Both the position numbers and the translations under genes were made by a program. Of a stretch of DNA of 64,000 bases, positions 22,392 to 39,169 are shown in pieces (position 1 is the first letter of the stretch; each line of letters starts with the position of its first letter). Origin of the DNA: Candidatus Binatia bacterium (GTDB taxonomy: Bacteria; Desulfobacterota; Binatia; UBA12015); the NCBI GenBank assembly GCA_029248525.1, contig JAQWJE010000049.1, forward strand, positions 310,001 through 374,000, read 5' to 3'. The notes beneath the pieces were generated by a model. That model had not been told where the DNA came from, made no database searches, and was given only the letters and a program-made list of their open reading frames with translations.

Positions 22392-24164
22392 TCAGCGTAG
22401 TTTGCGCGTCCCCTCCTGGAGGGAAGAAAACACATCCTGATCCACCGTCAGGTATTGAGATCCATCGAGAAAGAAAAGCGGGTCCTTGATCAGCGAGGGG
22501 TCAAATCCCTCTTTCCGATAGTCGACTTTCTGATGTTTGAAAGTGCCGGTGATCCGCATATCCTGCTGCAGACGCAGGAAGTAGGGCCGTTGGTAGCCGG
22601 GCAACTTCTCGATGACGAAACTTGTGAAATCCTCGAGGGAGAAGTCTTCCCGGCAATTCAGGCTGGCCATGCCTGCCCGACCATCAGCGCCCGGGACCAG
22701 AACGCCGTAGACATTGCTTTCGAGGACGCCGGGCGCATCATTGAGGATCTCCGCGACTTCGTTGGTGGATACGTTTTCTCCCTTCCAGCGGAAGGTATCC
22801 CCCACCCGATCGGCAAATGAGATCCACCAGTTTTCATGCAGGGTGATCAAATCTCCGGAATTAAAGGAGCGGTCCCCCTTGGCGAAGGCATCGTGCAGGA
22901 TTTTCTTTTCAGTGGCTGCCTTGTCGGCATAACCGTCGAACGGCGTGGTCGTCGAGATCTGCGCGACCAGCAGGCCGGTTTCGCCGACGGCGACTTTTTC
23001 GCAGAACCCATCAGAGTTGCGCAGGACGTCGCCTGTCGCGAGATCGCACCGCAGAATGGATTGCCCCGGGCCGAGGCGACCGACCATCCCTGGCCGATTT
23101 TCGAGGTTGACGGTCGGTGCATTGCCTTCGGTGGCGCCATAGAATTCTCTGATCTCGCTGATCTGAAAGCGCTTGGCAAAAGTTGTCCAGATATCCGGGC
23201 GAAGGCCGTTTCCCGTAATCACGCGGATCTTGTGGTTGGTGTCTTCAGGAGATGCGGGTTGGTTGAGCAAATAGCGAAGCAGCTCTCCGATATAGACAAA
23301 GGCAGTCGCTTCGAATTGGCGAATATCTGACCAGAAATTCGAAGCAGAAAACTTCGTGCGCAACGCCAGCGTCGCGCCGGTCAGGAGGGAACTGCCCAAG
23401 CCGGCGAACATTCCTGTGGAGTGATAAAGGGGCAGCGGAACGTAGTTGACATCCCCGGGGTGCAGCTCCAGAAGACCGCGCCCGAACAGGCAGGATGCGG
23501 AAAACCAGCGAGAGTTCTTGATGATGGCCGCCTTCGGCAGTCCGGTCGTCCCGGAGGTATAAATATAGCACATCGGTGCATCGCCGCGTGGGAGTGCCGG
23601 GGGCTGCGGTCGATCGCCAGGGAAATTGGCAAGAAGTAGATTCGCCGAGGGAAAGGTTTCGGTAGGCACGCTTTCGGCTTGCTCGAAGATCATCTCCGAT
23701 GGGATATTTTCCAATGTTTCGCGGACTTCGTGTAGTTTTTCCGCATGCTCGGAACCGACAATGCAGGCGCAAGCATTCGAGATCTGGATTGCGTGGGTAA
23801 GTCCCTTGCCGCTGATATTGGTGTTGATCAGAGCAGCGACCGCATGAATTCGGCCCAGACCAAGGAGCGCAAATATATATTCGGGGCGGTTGTCCATCAG
23901 CAACGCGACGGAATCTCCTGGCCCGATGCCACGGCTTTCAAAGAAGTTGGCCCAGCGGTCGGTCTCGGCGTTCGCCTGTCTCCATGTGTATCGCCGCTCC
24001 TTGAAGACCACCGCCAAATGATCGGCGTGATCGCGAGCCCGCTGCTCCATCAATCGAGCCGCACTCCATTTGCCCGAGGGGAGAAAGCCCGGCGCGTAGG
24101 GTGCCAGGCGGAGATAAAAGCATAATTGTTTCCATGCGGTGATCAGCTTTTCGCGAAAGTCCAT
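22392..24164 (-). CDS. Long/very-long-chain acyl-CoA synthetase (FATP/FadD6 type)
   Basis: 590 residues from the ATG at 24162-24164, which has GAGG upstream; a 15-codon upstream extension is possible but less likely. ANL-superfamily enzyme that activates fatty acids with ATP and CoA. The P-loop is intact (CYIYTSGTTGLPKAAII), as are REFYGATEGN and the C-terminal SGDLITLHENWWISFADR, and the A10 region ITGTFKHQKVDY with its lysine. The order and size match fatty acid transport proteins that couple uptake to activation. Two N-terminal hydrophobic stretches may associate it with the membrane. It is divergent to the inositol-phosphatase gene. Chain-length preference cannot be read. Confidence 0.93.
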   Translation of the reverse strand: MDFREKLITAWKQLCFYLRLAPYAPGFLPSGKWSAARLMEQRARDHADHLAVVFKERRYTWRQANAETDRWANFFESRGIGPGDSVALLMDNRPEYIFALLGLGRIHAVAALINTNISGKGLTHAIQISNACACIVGSEHAEKLHEVRETLENIPSEMIFEQAESVPTETFPSANLLLANFPGDRPQPPALPRGDAPMCYIYTSGTTGLPKAAIIKNSRWFSASCLFGRGLLELHPGDVNYVPLPLYHSTGMFAGLGSSLLTGATLALRTKFSASNFWSDIRQFEATAFVYIGELLRYLLNQPASPEDTNHKIRVITGNGLRPDIWTTFAKRFQISEIREFYGATEGNAPTVNLENRPGMVGRLGPGQSILRCDLATGDVLRNSDGFCEKVAVGETGLLVAQISTTTPFDGYADKAATEKKILHDAFAKGDRSFNSGDLITLHENWWISFADRVGDTFRWKGENVSTNEVAEILNDAPGVLESNVYGVLVPGADGRAGMASLNCREDFSLEDFTSFVIEKLPGYQRPYFLRLQQDMRITGTFKHQKVDYRKEGFDPSLIKDPLFFLDGSQYLTVDQDVFSSLQEGTRKLR

Positions 24165-24259
24165 GTTTGCCTCGTTGTTAATGTCTGGGGACAGATGTTC
24201 TTTTGGCACTGTAGGGGTGCCTGCGCCAGTTCGGTTGATGCGGGCTGCTTTCGCCGGAG

Positions 24260-34564: not shown

Positions 34565-35392
34565 TCAGCCAAACATGCCGCGGTTCCGCTGCGGAGCTCC
34601 TGCGAGCTCCCGGCTGTCGGTTTCCTTGCTGACATCTTCTTCCAACTTGCTGAAGCTCTTGCGCAGGCTGTCCTCGAAGCTGTCGAGTTCCTTCTGACGA
34701 CGTGCCTTCAACGCCTCGAAGCTGGCCCCGAACGATTCGTAGAAGGCGTCCATCCGTCGCCGAACCGCTTGGTACATGTCGGTTCGGGGAACGTAGGAGC
34801 CATTGCAATGCGGGCAGTGCAGGACGGTTCCGGGCGTGAGGAACTGGAAGGGAACGGTAAAGCGACCGCCGCAACGGAAGCAGGACAAGGGCACTGGCCA
34901 GTCGTCGGGGCTGGGAATGCCGGCGGCGATGGCATCCTCGGCGGAGATCGCCGGAGGGGGCGGGCCACCCGCGGCTCCCGGGGCGGCGGGCACTGCTCCT
35001 GCGGGCGCGGCATCTCCTGCAGCGGGGCCAGCCTCCGGAGCAGCGGCTGCAGCGGCCTCTTCCTTGAATCGGGAGGGGAAGTCCTCGGGGAAATCCTCGG
35101 TCGGGTGGATTTCCTTGGCGCGTTGGAAGAGGAGCTCCTCGGCCTCAGGGATGTCCGGATTCGGGATACAGCAGTCGACGGGGCAGACGGCGGCGCAGGC
35201 CTCGCTATCGAAAAAACCTACGCATTCCGTGCATTTTTCCGGAACGATGTAAAAGAAATCGTCACTGATGGCAGCTGTCTTCGAGCCATCCAATGCGTCG
35301 AATTCAATGCCACCCTGGTAGATGGCCGTATTGGGACACTCCGGTTCGCAGGCGCCGCAGTTAATGCACTCATCCGTGATCATCGTTGCCAT
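34565..35392 (-). CDS. YfhL-like ferredoxin fused to a zinc ribbon and helical tail
   Basis: 275 residues from the ATG at 35390-35392, chosen because it opens onto the ferredoxin fold; the frame is open 39 codons further upstream. Residues 1-80 carry two 4Fe-4S motifs: C9, C12, C15, C19 and C54, C57, C66, C70 with extra C74/C75 (TECVGFFDSEACAAVC). A flexible Ala/Pro-rich linker (~112-150) leads to a zinc-ribbon-like domain with C171/C174 and C193/C196, then a charged amphipathic helical tail (~205-260). YfhL alone is ~86 residues and donates electrons to unknown partners. The fusion suggests docking to another protein or nucleic acid. Confidence 0.82.
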   Translation of the reverse strand: MATMITDECINCGACEPECPNTAIYQGGIEFDALDGSKTAAISDDFFYIVPEKCTECVGFFDSEACAAVCPVDCCIPNPDIPEAEELLFQRAKEIHPTEDFPEDFPSRFKEEAAAAAAPEAGPAAGDAAPAGAVPAAPGAAGGPPPPAISAEDAIAAGIPSPDDWPVPLSCFRCGGRFTVPFQFLTPGTVLHCPHCNGSYVPRTDMYQAVRRRMDAFYESFGASFEALKARRQKELDSFEDSLRKSFSKLEEDVSKETDSRELAGAPQRNRGMFG

Positions 35393-35525
35393 TGAGGGGA
35401 CTTTAGCCACGAGTTTCCGAGCTCTCAAGGCAATCGCATCGGCTATCTTTTTCGGACGGTTCGAGCGGGCGCTTTCCCGCAAGCTTCGGTAGACTTCGAG
35501 CGTGCCCAACGCCCGACGATCGACG

Positions 35526-38444
35526 ATGCCCGGATTTGCGAATCGGTTTCTTTCTGCAATCAGAAATGGGGTCGAAATTGCACGGTTCGGCGGTTTGGGT
35601 GAGCGTCAATCCCATCCCTATGAGGTGATCGCTCGCGGCCCCCATCACCGTTTGCGGCGCTATTTCCCGGATGAGCCCAAAGCGTCTGCGGTTCCGGTCA
35701 TTCTGGTGCCGCCCCTGATGCTGACTGCTGAAGTTTGGGATGTCGCTCCCGGCGCCAGTGCTGTGGAGAAATTGAGCCTCGATGGAGCGGATCCGTGGGT
35801 GGTCGATTTTGGCTCACCGGAGAAGGAGAAAGGCGGCCTCAAGCGCACGCTGAGCGACCACGTGCTCGCGATCGCCGCCAGCGTCGAGGCCGTGGTCGAG
35901 ACGACCGGGCGGGATGTTCACCTGATGGGCTACTCGCAGGGAGGCATGTTTGCGTATCAGGCGGCCGCTTACTGCCAATCCGACAAGATTTCTTCGCTGG
36001 TGACCTTCGGGGCTCCGGTGGACCTGCACAGTGCCCTGCTCGATCGGGTGCCGATGGAATTTGTTCTGGAGCTGGTAGAGCAGGCGGGGCGAGTCGAATC
36101 CTCGCTTCTTCCCGCGGGAATTCCGCGCTGGGCAACTCGACTCGGTTTTCAGCTGCTGGACCCGATCAAGACCCTCCAGCAGCGTTTCGATTTTCTCTCC
36201 AAGCTGGCCGATCGCGAGGCGCTTCTGGAGCGTGACGGCATGCGTCGCTTCATGGAAGATGAGGGCTGGACGGCTTTTCCCGGCCCGGCGCTGCGAGATG
36301 CGCTGCGCGAATTGGTAGCCCATAACCGCCTTCTGCGCGGCGGGGTTGTGATCGGTGATCGGACGGTGACGCTCGCCGATATCAGTTGCCCGATTCTGGC
36401 TTTCTCCGGGGCCTCGGATACGATTGCGCCGCCACCGAGCGTCCGTGCGATTCGCTCGGCAGCACCGCGAGCTTCGTCGTACGAGATCCGTTTGCAGACC
36501 GGCCATTTCGGGTTGGTGGCTGGTTCGCGGGCGCAGCGCGATACCTGGCCTGCGGTGGCCACCTGGTTGGGCGCAAGAGAAGGCCGCAATCCGCTACCGA
36601 CCAATGCCTACCAGCTTGCCGAGACAGACGGACATGCCAAACCGCCGGAAGGTTTTCTCGTGGATTTACAGCGCGGGACGGAAACGGCCTGGCATTTGGG
36701 CGTGGACCTCGTCGGTGGTGCGGCCGAAGTGGCGGGAGGCCGCCTCGGCGGCGTCGGCCGCATGTTCGCTGCCGTGCTCCCGCAGGTCGCGCGAATTTCT
36801 CGGCTGGAATCCATTCGCTCCGACACCCGGATCAGCCCGTCGCTGGCAATGGCGGACAAGGCACGCGAGGCTCCCGCCGACACATTTTTCCTCTTCGGCG
36901 GTCGGGCCTACAGCTACCGGGACGCCAATACCCGCGTCGATAATGTGGTGCTCGGATTGCTCAAATGCGGTGTCCGTCAGGGCCAATATGTCGGTGTTCT
37001 GATGGAGACCCGCCCAAGTGCGCTGGCGGCCACCGTGGCCCTTTCCCGAATCGGCGCGGTGCCAGTGCTGCTGCGGCCGGATATGCCGCTGGCGGTCCAA
37101 CTGCAGGTGGCTCCGGTGGATCATCTGCTGGCAGACCCCGAGCGTGGATCGGAAGCCTACAAGATTTTTGGTAGGGAAGTTTTGGTCCTTGGTGGCGGCG
37201 GTGGGCCGCGATCTCTCGGGGCAGGGGTTCTGGATATGGAAGCGATTGATCCGGCCGAGGTGGTCCCACCGGACTGGTACGTTCCCGATCCCGGTCTGGC
37301 GGGGGAATTGGCGATGATTCTGATCACCGGTTCGGCCAGGCATCCGGGGATCAGTCGAGTCACCAACCGTCGATGGAGTACCTCGGCATACGGCGCCGCT
37401 TCGGCAACAGCCTTGTCCAAGGACGATACGGTCTATTGCTGCTCGCCGACACACCACGCGACCGGCATTCTGGTGGGCGTCGGCGCGGCGCTGGTCAGTG
37501 GTGCTCGCCTGGCCGTGACTCGCGACTTCTCGGTGGATTCGTTCTGGGAGGATGTTCGCCGCTACGGGGTGGATGTTGTCTTCTACTCGGGTGGCCTCTG
37601 TCGCGCCCTGGTCAACGCACCCACTGACGCCCGAGAGCAGGATCATCCGATTCGGATTTTTGCGGGCAGCGGCATGCCACGCGGCGTTTGGACGCGCCTG
37701 GTAGAGCGTTTACGGCCGGTGCTGGCGATCGAATTTTTTGCCTCGAGTGAAGGCAATGCGGTTCTGGTCAACTTGACTGGCGAGAAGATTGGATCTGTAG
37801 GTCGTCCCTTGCCCGGCGGTGCGGAAATCGCGGTGGCGGCCTGGGACCTGGAGCGCGATCGCATGGTGGAGTTGGGGAGTGGGTTTGCCGAGCCTTGTGG
37901 TCGGGGGCGAATGGGTCTGCTTCTCTCGCGCGTGGCGCCGGAGCGCGGTGAAGTGGAAGGCCGTCCTCTTCGCGGAGTTTTTCATGCCGGTGATGCATGG
38001 CTCGATACCGGGGATCTTGTTCGTTGCGACCCCGAGGGTGATTTCTGGTTGCTCGACCATCGCAAGGATCTGATTCATACGAGCACGGGGGTCGTTGCGA
38101 CGATACCCATCGAAGACACACTGGCGACGGAACTGGATTTTGTGGACCTTGCTGCCGTCTATGGCGTGCAGAGAGACGGCGATGCCCATCAGACCGTGGT
38201 GGCAGCGATTACCTTGCGTCGGGGGAGTACCTTCGACCTTCATGCCTTTGGTGAGCTTGTCGAGACCAGGCTATCGAAAGTCGAGCGTCCGCGATTCGTT
38301 CGCGTTCTCGATGAACTCCCCATGACTTCCGGACATCGACTGCAGAAAAGCGTGCTGCGTGCCGCCGGCCTCGATTCCACCCACGAAACGGATTTCGAGG
38401 TTCCATCGACGATCGCGGAATCGCGTTCGGGAGAAATGATTTGA
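35526..38444 (+). CDS. Alpha/beta-hydrolase fused to a degenerate acyl-CoA-synthetase (ANL) domain
   Basis: 972 residues from ATG 35526 (an in-frame GTG at 35502 would add eight). Residues ~1-370 form an alpha/beta-hydrolase resembling the PhaC-type fold, with the nucleophile serine (~137) in LMGYSQGGMFAYQ. The rest is an ANL domain: ITGSARHPGISRVTN at the P-loop position lacks the canonical TSGTTGxPK, while SSEGNAVLVNL, LDTGDLVRCDPEGD and LLDHRKDLIHTSTG are kept. The C-terminal A10 motif reads SGHRLQKSVLR, so Arg seems to replace the catalytic Lys. Fusions of this kind occur in mycobacteria and relatives. Adenylation activity is doubtful. Divergent to the ferredoxin gene; its stop overlaps the next start by one base. 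Confidence 0.8.
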   Translation: MPGFANRFLSAIRNGVEIARFGGLGERQSHPYEVIARGPHHRLRRYFPDEPKASAVPVILVPPLMLTAEVWDVAPGASAVEKLSLDGADPWVVDFGSPEKEKGGLKRTLSDHVLAIAASVEAVVETTGRDVHLMGYSQGGMFAYQAAAYCQSDKISSLVTFGAPVDLHSALLDRVPMEFVLELVEQAGRVESSLLPAGIPRWATRLGFQLLDPIKTLQQRFDFLSKLADREALLERDGMRRFMEDEGWTAFPGPALRDALRELVAHNRLLRGGVVIGDRTVTLADISCPILAFSGASDTIAPPPSVRAIRSAAPRASSYEIRLQTGHFGLVAGSRAQRDTWPAVATWLGAREGRNPLPTNAYQLAETDGHAKPPEGFLVDLQRGTETAWHLGVDLVGGAAEVAGGRLGGVGRMFAAVLPQVARISRLESIRSDTRISPSLAMADKAREAPADTFFLFGGRAYSYRDANTRVDNVVLGLLKCGVRQGQYVGVLMETRPSALAATVALSRIGAVPVLLRPDMPLAVQLQVAPVDHLLADPERGSEAYKIFGREVLVLGGGGGPRSLGAGVLDMEAIDPAEVVPPDWYVPDPGLAGELAMILITGSARHPGISRVTNRRWSTSAYGAASATALSKDDTVYCCSPTHHATGILVGVGAALVSGARLAVTRDFSVDSFWEDVRRYGVDVVFYSGGLCRALVNAPTDAREQDHPIRIFAGSGMPRGVWTRLVERLRPVLAIEFFASSEGNAVLVNLTGEKIGSVGRPLPGGAEIAVAAWDLERDRMVELGSGFAEPCGRGRMGLLLSRVAPERGEVEGRPLRGVFHAGDAWLDTGDLVRCDPEGDFWLLDHRKDLIHTSTGVVATIPIEDTLATELDFVDLAAVYGVQRDGDAHQTVVAAITLRRGSTFDLHAFGELVETRLSKVERPRFVRVLDELPMTSGHRLQKSVLRAAGLDSTHETDFEVPSTIAESRSGEMI

Positions 38445-39169
38445 TGCGCAAGCCCATCGCAATTATTTTGGCTGCGGGTGTTGGTCGGCGATTTGGCGAG
38501 GCTTCGACGGGACAGCCCAAGGCGCTTCTCGAAGTTGAGGGAGAGACTCTTCTTGCCCGATTGATTCGGCAGTTGCGTCTCGCGGGAGTGGACGAGATCG
38601 TTGTGGTGGCAGGATTCGGGATCGACGCGATTCGTGAGGCGGTGGGTTCAGGTGTCGAAGTTCTCTGGAACCCGGACTTTGAGCGCGGCGCTATTCTCTC
38701 GCTCTATACCGCTCGCGATTTTTTCGACCGAGATCTACTCGTGATGGATGCTGATGTTTTCGGCCCGGATGTGATGTTGTCGCGACTGGTCAACTCTCCG
38801 CAGGAGAGTTGTTTTCTCCTCGATGCGCGCGCCGAGGCGAGTGGGGAAGAGCAGATGCTTCACGTCCGCGGTGATCGGGTTTGGGATATCGCGCGCCAAC
38901 CGCGGGGGTCCTACGACCTCCTCGGGGAATCCGTCGGATTTTTGAAAGTCAGCGTCGAGGCAGCGCCGCTGTTGCTGGAACTCCTGTCGGCCCGTGTCGC
39001 TCGAGGCGAGATCGATCTCGAGCACGAGGAAGTCTATCCGGACTTTCTCGAGCGCACGCATGTAGGGTTCGAACGGGTGGATGATCTGGACTGGACCGAA
39101 GTCGATTTCCCCGAGGATCTGGAACGGGCGCGCGCGATCGGACGACAGGCTCGAGGAGATTCAGCCTAG
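38444..39169 (+). CDS. NTP transferase domain protein (sugar/alcohol nucleotidyltransferase)
   Basis: 241 residues. GT-A fold: IILAAGVGRRFG (nucleotide-binding signature), GQPKALLEVEGETLL with the conserved Lys, and a metal-binding DADVFGP. It resembles phosphocholine or sugar-phosphate cytidylyltransferases. ATG 38444 overlaps the stop of the fusion gene by one base, so they are translationally coupled, hinting at an activated phospho-alcohol or sugar used with the acyl product. The stop shares a CTAG with the stop of the convergent carboxyltransferase gene. Confidence 0.85.
   Translation: MRKPIAIILAAGVGRRFGEASTGQPKALLEVEGETLLARLIRQLRLAGVDEIVVVAGFGIDAIREAVGSGVEVLWNPDFERGAILSLYTARDFFDRDLLVMDADVFGPDVMLSRLVNSPQESCFLLDARAEASGEEQMLHVRGDRVWDIARQPRGSYDLLGESVGFLKVSVEAAPLLLELLSARVARGEIDLEHEEVYPDFLERTHVGFERVDDLDWTEVDFPEDLERARAIGRQARGDSA

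Follow-up and report, generated by a model that had tools for sequence, protein, structure and literature searches.

A polyhydroxyalkanoate-synthase-like hydrolase fused to a probable pseudo-acyl-CoA-synthetase domain in a Candidatus Binatia genome and its relatives

A Fused Hydrolase/ANL Gene in the Window

The window analysed here is a stretch of 64,000 nucleotides from a Candidatus Binatia genome (GCA_029248525.1, contig JAQWJE010000049.1, positions 310,001 to 374,000; genome of 4.27 Mb, 98.9% complete), and its gene of interest, at 35526–38444 on the forward strand, encodes a serine hydrolase resembling polyhydroxyalkanoate (PHA) synthases (PhaC) followed by a degenerate ANL domain. The open reading frame (ORF) runs without interruption or internal stop from 35502 to 38444 (+), giving 980 aa if translation begins at a GTG (35502) and 972 aa if it begins at an ATG further in (35526). 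The ATG is probably the true start, since the GTG would make the gene overlap a divergent ferredoxin-like ORF (34565–35509, −); residue numbers are counted from the GTG throughout.

The protein matches the family NF005898 (PRK07868, “acyl-CoA synthetase”) over its full length, with 997.8 bits against a curated cut-off of 925 and residues 13–963 of 980 lying on model positions 12–963, and the Pfam domains come in the order alpha/beta hydrolase, AMP-binding (ANL; PF00501) and C-terminal lid (PF13193). This two-domain architecture is common, end to end, to the window protein, to that family, and, by published descriptions, to Rv1683 of Mycobacterium tuberculosis, but the family name implies an activity for which neither the window protein nor its clade has the motifs. 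No other match in the genome comes close in score, the second-best of 14 reaching 140.8 bits.

The Hydrolase Half

The N-terminal domain (about residues 39–360; 35616–36581, +) matches TIGR01836 with 134.7 bits, under that model's cut-off of 365.3. A 32-row profile, run against the PDB sequences at E 1e-5, recovered five matches, every one of them a PHA synthase. The domain was also folded separately, as the fold searches with the whole-protein model listed ANL matches and nothing for the hydrolase. Modelled alone (AF2; predicted local distance difference test, pLDDT, 76.6), it aligned with PhaC structures at VIA Z 27–31 (root-mean-square deviation 3.1–4.0 over 300–335 residues), and acid lipases followed behind at about 24–25. 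Sequence profiles and fold comparison agree in predicting a PHA-synthase-type alpha/beta hydrolase.

The nucleophile elbow GYSQGG (35928–35945, +) presents Ser145, and Asp306 (36417–36419, +) and His335 (in GHFGL; 36504–36506, +) are the putative acid and histidine of the triad; all three are intact in the 119 scored fusions, window included (one further fusion, L149, stands outside this count). The initial annotation had tentatively assigned the catalytic work to the GYSQGG hydrolase, and this conservation supports it, as does a published mutant of a mycobacterial relative described below.

The likeness to PHA synthases (9knj, 5t6o, 6k3c) extends to fold and motif order, and it raises the alternative that the main activity of the serine domain is that of an acyltransferase or a thioesterase acting on acyl-coenzyme A (acyl-CoA), the ANL half holding the acyl-CoA while storage esters are made or remodelled and not just split. 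We regard this as unlikely, but as an alternative of some weight. In its favour, the closest solved folds are PHA synthases, ahead of the acid lipases, one of them with CoA bound (6k3c). Against it stands the nucleophile: in the HMMER alignment, GYsqGG of the fusions falls on GYciGG of the full-length PHA synthase 9knj, whose GxCxG motif carries Cys where all 119 fusions have Ser. In addition, a search of the window's genome for PhaC_N gave no match, although a class III PhaC might escape such a search.

The nucleophile also bears on another kind of fusion. In the OleBC proteins of olefin biosynthesis a hydrolase likewise precedes an ANL domain, and this shared order is what could be said for a beta-lactone pathway of the OleB–OleC type. 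The nucleophile of OleB is Asp, however, where the present proteins have Ser without exception, and the family match is to NF005898; on these two grounds, no search for Ole genes having been made, this identity is hardly credible.

A hydrolase half standing alone, with no ANL domain, was seen in genome G347 (L147:6220–7335; 372 aa, 333 bits to NF005898).

The ANL Half

The ANL half consists of a well-conserved N-terminal subdomain (about residues 440–852; 36819–38057, +) and a C-terminal lid (853–960; 38058–38381, +) that is eroded save for Arg946. Inspection of the sequence had initially suggested an altered P-loop and an Arg in place of the catalytic Lys of motif A10, and both observations held after alignment with intact fusions. 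The former P-loop segment (A3; 37311–37367, +) reads AMILITGSARHPGISRVTN where the intact fusion L123 has AMLIFTSGTTGLPKPAKITN, so that the TTG and PK elements are lost and the segment is one residue shorter. Arg946 (38337–38339, +) falls in the column of the A10 Lys, which is Lys in all seven intact fusions and in both stand-alone synthetases aligned.

The further claim that the domain keeps its fold motifs stood in part. The window protein retains the A5 Glu750 (FFASSEGN) and the A7 motif TGD (DTGD), but in the A8 hinge DHRKD (38055–38069, +) the Asp remains, the Arg having become His853 and the Gly Lys855; the A8 stretch is DHRKDLIHTSTGVV in the window protein and DRVGDTFRWKGENV in L002, the stand-alone synthetase encoded elsewhere in the window. 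Of what marks functional long-chain acyl-CoA synthetases of the NF006134/FATP type, the P-loop TSGTTGxPK, the A10 Lys, and the A8 Arg are all absent, and the A5 Glu with the A7 (S/T)GD is present here and partly lost elsewhere in the clade.

The nearest relatives of this half are the FATP/FadD6-type synthetases (NF006134, PF00501), with solved FATP2 (9vzp) as the best PDB match; nevertheless, it lacks their P-loop, A10 Lys, and A8 Arg, and scores 281 bits to NF006134, far under the cut-off of 625, whereas two intact fusions come close to it (L122, 585 bits; L123, 590 bits). A complete ANL fold is seen in the model of the whole protein (pLDDT 80.6, predicted template-modelling score 0.78), and the 50 entries listed in its fold comparison are ANL enzymes at VIA Z 34–37, nearly all of adenylating families. 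Such similarity of a model by itself demonstrates no activity.

A linker with a long predicted helix (residues 386–437; 36657–36812, +), modelled partly with low confidence, joins the two halves and is a possible lipid-surface helix.

Distribution of the Motif Losses among Related Fusions

Two sets of relatives were aligned with the window protein: the 80 best among 390 candidates found on genome contigs, and members from samples of three phyla and of one order. As the best 80 were picked by short peptides of the window protein, they are biased towards near relatives, a bias from which the phylum samples are free. After removal of 13 duplicates from 132 rows and addition of L149, 120 distinct fusions remained; L140, which lies at a contig end with its A10 unreadable, and the partial L144 and L146 were set aside before the counts, and L152, another fusion whose P-loop is canonical but which is preserved only as a fragment at the end of a contig, stayed outside the alignment.

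Among the 120 fusions, 110 lack the P-loop and have Arg at A10, seven have both P-loop and Lys, and three are partial; in the rows typed for both, the two features are thus always lost or kept jointly. The loops of the seven intact fusions read TSGT(T/S)G(L/F)PK, and G[ST][ST]G is absent from the loop in all 110 degenerate ones. These 110 form 45 clusters at 70% identity, with Arg at A10 in every one, which is not chance. The remaining motifs decayed less evenly: A5 Glu is retained in 39 of the 45 clusters, A7 Asp in 34, and A8 Arg in 21, so loss of the P-loop and Lys is complete in the clade and the other losses are uneven. A shift of the catalytic Lys to position 949 was considered and rejected, Lys being found there in only 27 of the 45 clusters. 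The pseudo-enzyme reading proposed at the outset is supported by this survey, since neither a canonical P-loop nor an A10 Lys emerged on correct alignment.

All fusions above the NF005898 cut-off in the three phylum samples are degenerate, without P-loop and A10 Lys. The intact ones, which lie outside the degenerate clade and have the full complement of adenylation motifs, were found in the Myxococcota sample and in a sample of one of its orders, and score 728–852 bits, under the cut-off. In the window's own phylum, matches (E 1e-60 or better) occurred in 2 of 247 genomes, that of the window included, so the family is patchy there. A possible intermediate was noticed in L140 (genome G438), with a P-loop of TSGRSGQPR and an A7 of DTRDL.

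A Probable Single Loss, and Relaxed Constraint at the ATP Site

A tree of the ANL half was built from 62 rows and 490 columns, with the P-loop and A10 columns removed and L003 excluded for its long branch. All 53 degenerate rows fell on one side of a single branch (support 100/100, present in 100% of 200 bootstrap trees), and the other side held the intact fusions and the stand-alone FATP-type synthetases L148 and L002. The root is less certain than this split because the outgroup consists of two proteins only. The best reading of these sequences is that adenylation was lost once, ancestrally, in a fusion of lipase and acyl-CoA synthetase, which thereby became a lipase carrying a pseudo-synthetase domain.

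The ratio of nonsynonymous to synonymous substitution rates (dN/dS), taken for the 14 most similar of 23 available close pairs, was 0.05–0.16 in the ANL half, each time higher than in the hydrolase (0.02–0.10). As the ANL values lie far under 1, this half is maintained and not in simple decay. The distribution of constraint within it was examined on 80 ANL columns that are invariant in the seven intact fusions and two stand-alone synthetases, with the motif columns chosen by the analyst. None of the 15 ATP-site columns was kept at ≥90% in the 45 clusters, versus 23 of the 65 others (Fisher p 0.004), with the A5 Glu falling narrowly under that line; thresholds of 70, 80, 85, and 95% gave p values of 0.02, 0.007, 0.03, and 0.02.

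The lid was compared at matched divergence. Seven randomly drawn degenerate clusters (300 draws; hydrolase divergence 0.551 vs 0.558) had on average 5.6 invariant lid columns and never more than 14, where the seven intact fusions have 29; the corresponding figures were 95.7 against 103 in the hydrolase and 90.7 against 117 in the ANL N-terminal subdomain. From these sequence comparisons, constraint on the ANL half is relaxed where catalysis would require it. No lid residue other than Arg946 is invariant in the 110 sequences and their 45 clusters, and an Arg fixed in a drifting lid, at the former site of the catalytic Lys, suggests a new role more than plain decay.

The same data bear on the proposal that the ANL half still adenylates, Arg946 replacing the Lys and some other loop holding the phosphates. 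The invariance of the Arg fits this, as do the many clusters that keep the A5 Glu and A7 Asp; in addition, exchange of the P-loop Lys alone is reported to cost 4-fold (PMC8388817), and both activities have been stated for the mycobacterial BCG1721 (PMC6572852). However, the loop residues are free to vary and G[ST][ST]G appears in none of the 110. The review table that gives this 4-fold figure also lists losses of 14- to 2000-fold when one Thr or Gly of the P-loop is exchanged, no activity after a Pro change, and 100- to 500-fold losses for A8 and A7 residues (PMC8388817). With several such changes combined here, residual adenylation is unlikely, and we consider the proposal very improbable.

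Mycobacterial Relatives and Lipid Storage

BCG1721, a protein identical to Rv1683, has been reported to associate with lipid inclusions; its overexpression led to more long-chain triacylglycerol (TAG) in the non-replicating state and to more lipolysis on reactivation, and the S150A exchange impaired that increase in lipolysis (PMC10699116). The gain in TAG would suit an acyltransferase, but the effect of S150A concerns lipolysis, and it is this effect that points to the hydrolase as the working half. The synthase domain, described in the same source as “thought” to be active, is placed N-terminally there, opposite to the order here, whereas another description has the lipase N-terminal and the synthase C-terminal, matching it (PMC11980559). 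MSMEG_3767 and MAB_2348 are given as orthologues of the mycobacterial fusion (PMC6572852), the former being the one such lipase in M. smegmatis (PMC11279797), and no more than two intracellular lipases, the fusion member among them, are described as linked to the breakdown of mycobacterial inclusions (PMC6572852, PMC11279797). Changes in Rv1683 were also reported in two of four benzoxaborole-resistant isolates (PMC5571309).

Seven Mycobacteriaceae loci were checked for the motifs; all seven have Arg at A10 and none has the P-loop. In the Mycobacterium locus L060 the fusion lies in an argG-argH-...-Trm112-...-tyrS setting, an order that agrees with the neighbourhood of Rv1683. Several candidate starts in the Mycobacterium loci place the serine at 147–153, compatible with the published S150 and no proof of identity. 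Judged from the published descriptions and the setting of L060, Rv1683 apparently belongs to the degenerate family.

A tie to lipid storage is also suggested by the co-occurrence of PF03007 (WS/DGAT, TAG/wax synthase), of which the window's genome has three copies. With kinship ignored, the Myxococcota sample had it in 30 of the 40 genomes that carry a fusion and in 70 of the 195 that do not (Fisher p 7e-6; the latter include two genomes in which just a lone hydrolase or a lone ANL match was found), and the Actinomycetota sample in 10 of 10 versus 80 of 236 (p 3e-5).

Synthetases and Other Genes Near the Fusions

Four loci of the window's clade have an intact FATP-type synthetase gene directly upstream of the fusion on the same strand (L012:6434–7918, L013:6017–7927, L018:6088–7872, and L105, where the gene is truncated because the retrieved sequence stops within it). 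The gene in L012, L013, and L018 ends at most 129 bases before the aligned start of the fusion; its product scores 648 bits (L012) and 764 bits (L013) to NF006134, above the cut-off, and carries YTSGTTG(L/M)PK and TGTFK in all four. At a distance of about 11 kb from the fusion, the window itself encodes an intact long-chain acyl-CoA synthetase of FATP type (22392–24209, −; NF006134 661.7 bits; YTSGTTGLPK, A10 TGTFK), to judge from its motifs a possible separate source of synthetase activity. In two Actinomadura loci, the upstream neighbour is fatty-acyl-AMP-ligase-like (L019:6248–7945, by family scan; L021:6294–7949, by motif and length). Such adjoining pairs suggest that the activation step has been outsourced, an interaction between the products not being proven thereby.

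They also bring to mind PtmA2 of the platensimycin pathway, which is not known to be fused to a hydrolase. PtmA2 is described as a non-adenylating acyl-CoA ligase, an ANL protein for which another enzyme, PtmA1, carries out the adenylation (PMC6594144). By analogy, only adenylation might have been lost here, the ANL half still making acyl-CoA from acyl-AMP delivered by a partner, and the synthetase and ligase-like neighbours in L012, L013, L018, L105, L019, and L021 would be candidates for that partner. PtmA2 retains thioester formation, however, and the elements needed for it look eroded in the window protein. The A8 stretch, which forms part of the CoA channel wall when the ANL fold is in its thioester-forming state, is altered relative to L002, and the lid has lost most of its invariant columns. 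As the CoA-side elements look eroded too, a thioesterification-only enzyme ranks low, and we judge it improbable.

Neighbouring genes were called by a codon-usage score, longest-ORF calling being confounded by antisense ORFs. Upstream of the window gene, the divergent ORF 34565–35509 (−) encodes a ferredoxin-like protein. Its N-terminus is of YfhL type (85.8 bits, cut-off 86) and is joined by a long linker rich in Pro and Ala to two C-terminal CxxC motifs (CFRCGG...CPHCNG) that resemble a zinc ribbon. Downstream, 38444–39169 (+) encodes a MobA-like nucleotidyltransferase, for which no NCBIfam cut-off was reached and whose probable ATG overlaps the stop codon of the fusion by one base (38444). 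Among the 81 loci compared, this gene adjoins the fusion again only in the near-identical contig L011; no conserved operon partner of the window gene was seen among them, and neighbours vary by lineage. PADLOC returned nothing.

Elsewhere, a cytochrome P450 gene lies downstream of the fusion in L019 (11042–12415), and an encapsulin-type shell protein gene (Linocin_M18, 284.9 bits) lies ~2 kb upstream of the intact fusion in L154 (L154:4283–5266; genome G405). Nine neighbours of the intact fusions L154 and L155 showed no shared or lipid-gene pattern.

Interpretation

Taken together, the window gene probably encodes a PHA-synthase-fold serine hydrolase, a lipase or esterase, with a C-terminal pseudo-acyl-CoA-synthetase, as far as its sequence and that of its relatives can tell. 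Its ancestor would have been a bifunctional enzyme in which fatty acids were freed from stored lipid and then activated to acyl-CoA on one polypeptide. Adenylation would have been lost once and passed to separate synthetases, and the ANL half would no longer form acyl-AMP. The hydrolase would act on acyl esters of lipid inclusions, likely triacylglycerol or another such ester by analogy with BCG1721. Acyl-chain binding by the ANL half is plausible; the conserved N-terminal subdomain may hold acyl-CoA, a partner, or the fatty acid that the hydrolase sets free, and may position or regulate the hydrolase, with Arg946 as a putative anion-binding or lid-locking residue.

Several observations weigh against this interpretation. 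The A5 Glu and A7 TGD persist in the window protein, and the A5 Glu, A7 Asp, and A8 Arg are retained together in 17 of the 45 clusters. Taken alone, the window protein keeps 7 of 15 ATP-site columns versus 42 of 65 others (p 0.24, not significant); the case rests on the P-loop, Arg946, and the clade. BCG1721 is, moreover, the protein said to exhibit both activities. Support from genomic context is also incomplete: an intact FATP-type gene adjoins the fusion in just four loci of the clade and none abuts the window gene, WS/DGAT is missing from 10 of the 40 Myxococcota fusion genomes, including two of the six of intact type, and the co-occurrence counts are uncorrected for shared ancestry. Finally, the hydrophobic moment of the linker helix was matched or exceeded by 2–21 of 300 shuffles in eight of ten proteins (21 for the window protein), and by 136 and 102 in the other two.

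A more specific role for the dead synthetase half can be put forward only tentatively, and we think it unlikely in this precise form: it may be a sensor whose old acyl pocket and Arg946 bind fatty acid or acyl-CoA that the cell has released or stored, the lid switching the hydrolase between splitting and forming storage esters. If true, bacterial fat stores would be regulated by an ANL pseudoenzyme built into the hydrolase itself, and it would be clear why overexpression of BCG1721 raises TAG in one state and hastens its breakdown in another.

Regarding novelty, the family and its architecture are already catalogued; what is new is that the P-loop and Lys are lost throughout the clade, that intact sister fusions exist, and that the Arg is fixed. 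In the accessible portions of the open-licence literature we found no statement that the ANL half of the NF005898 family lacks its motifs, and no broader negative is claimed.

In conclusion, an equivalog named “acyl-CoA synthetase” comprises, in three phylum samples, above-cut-off fusions that lack the P-loop and A10 Lys, yet the seven intact fusions fall under its cut-off and offer a natural control. On the reading favoured here, the “synthase” label of Rv1683 is doubtful. If its synthase half is indeed dead, the two-activity picture of Rv1683 would need revision, and the question would become what the pseudo-domain senses or binds.

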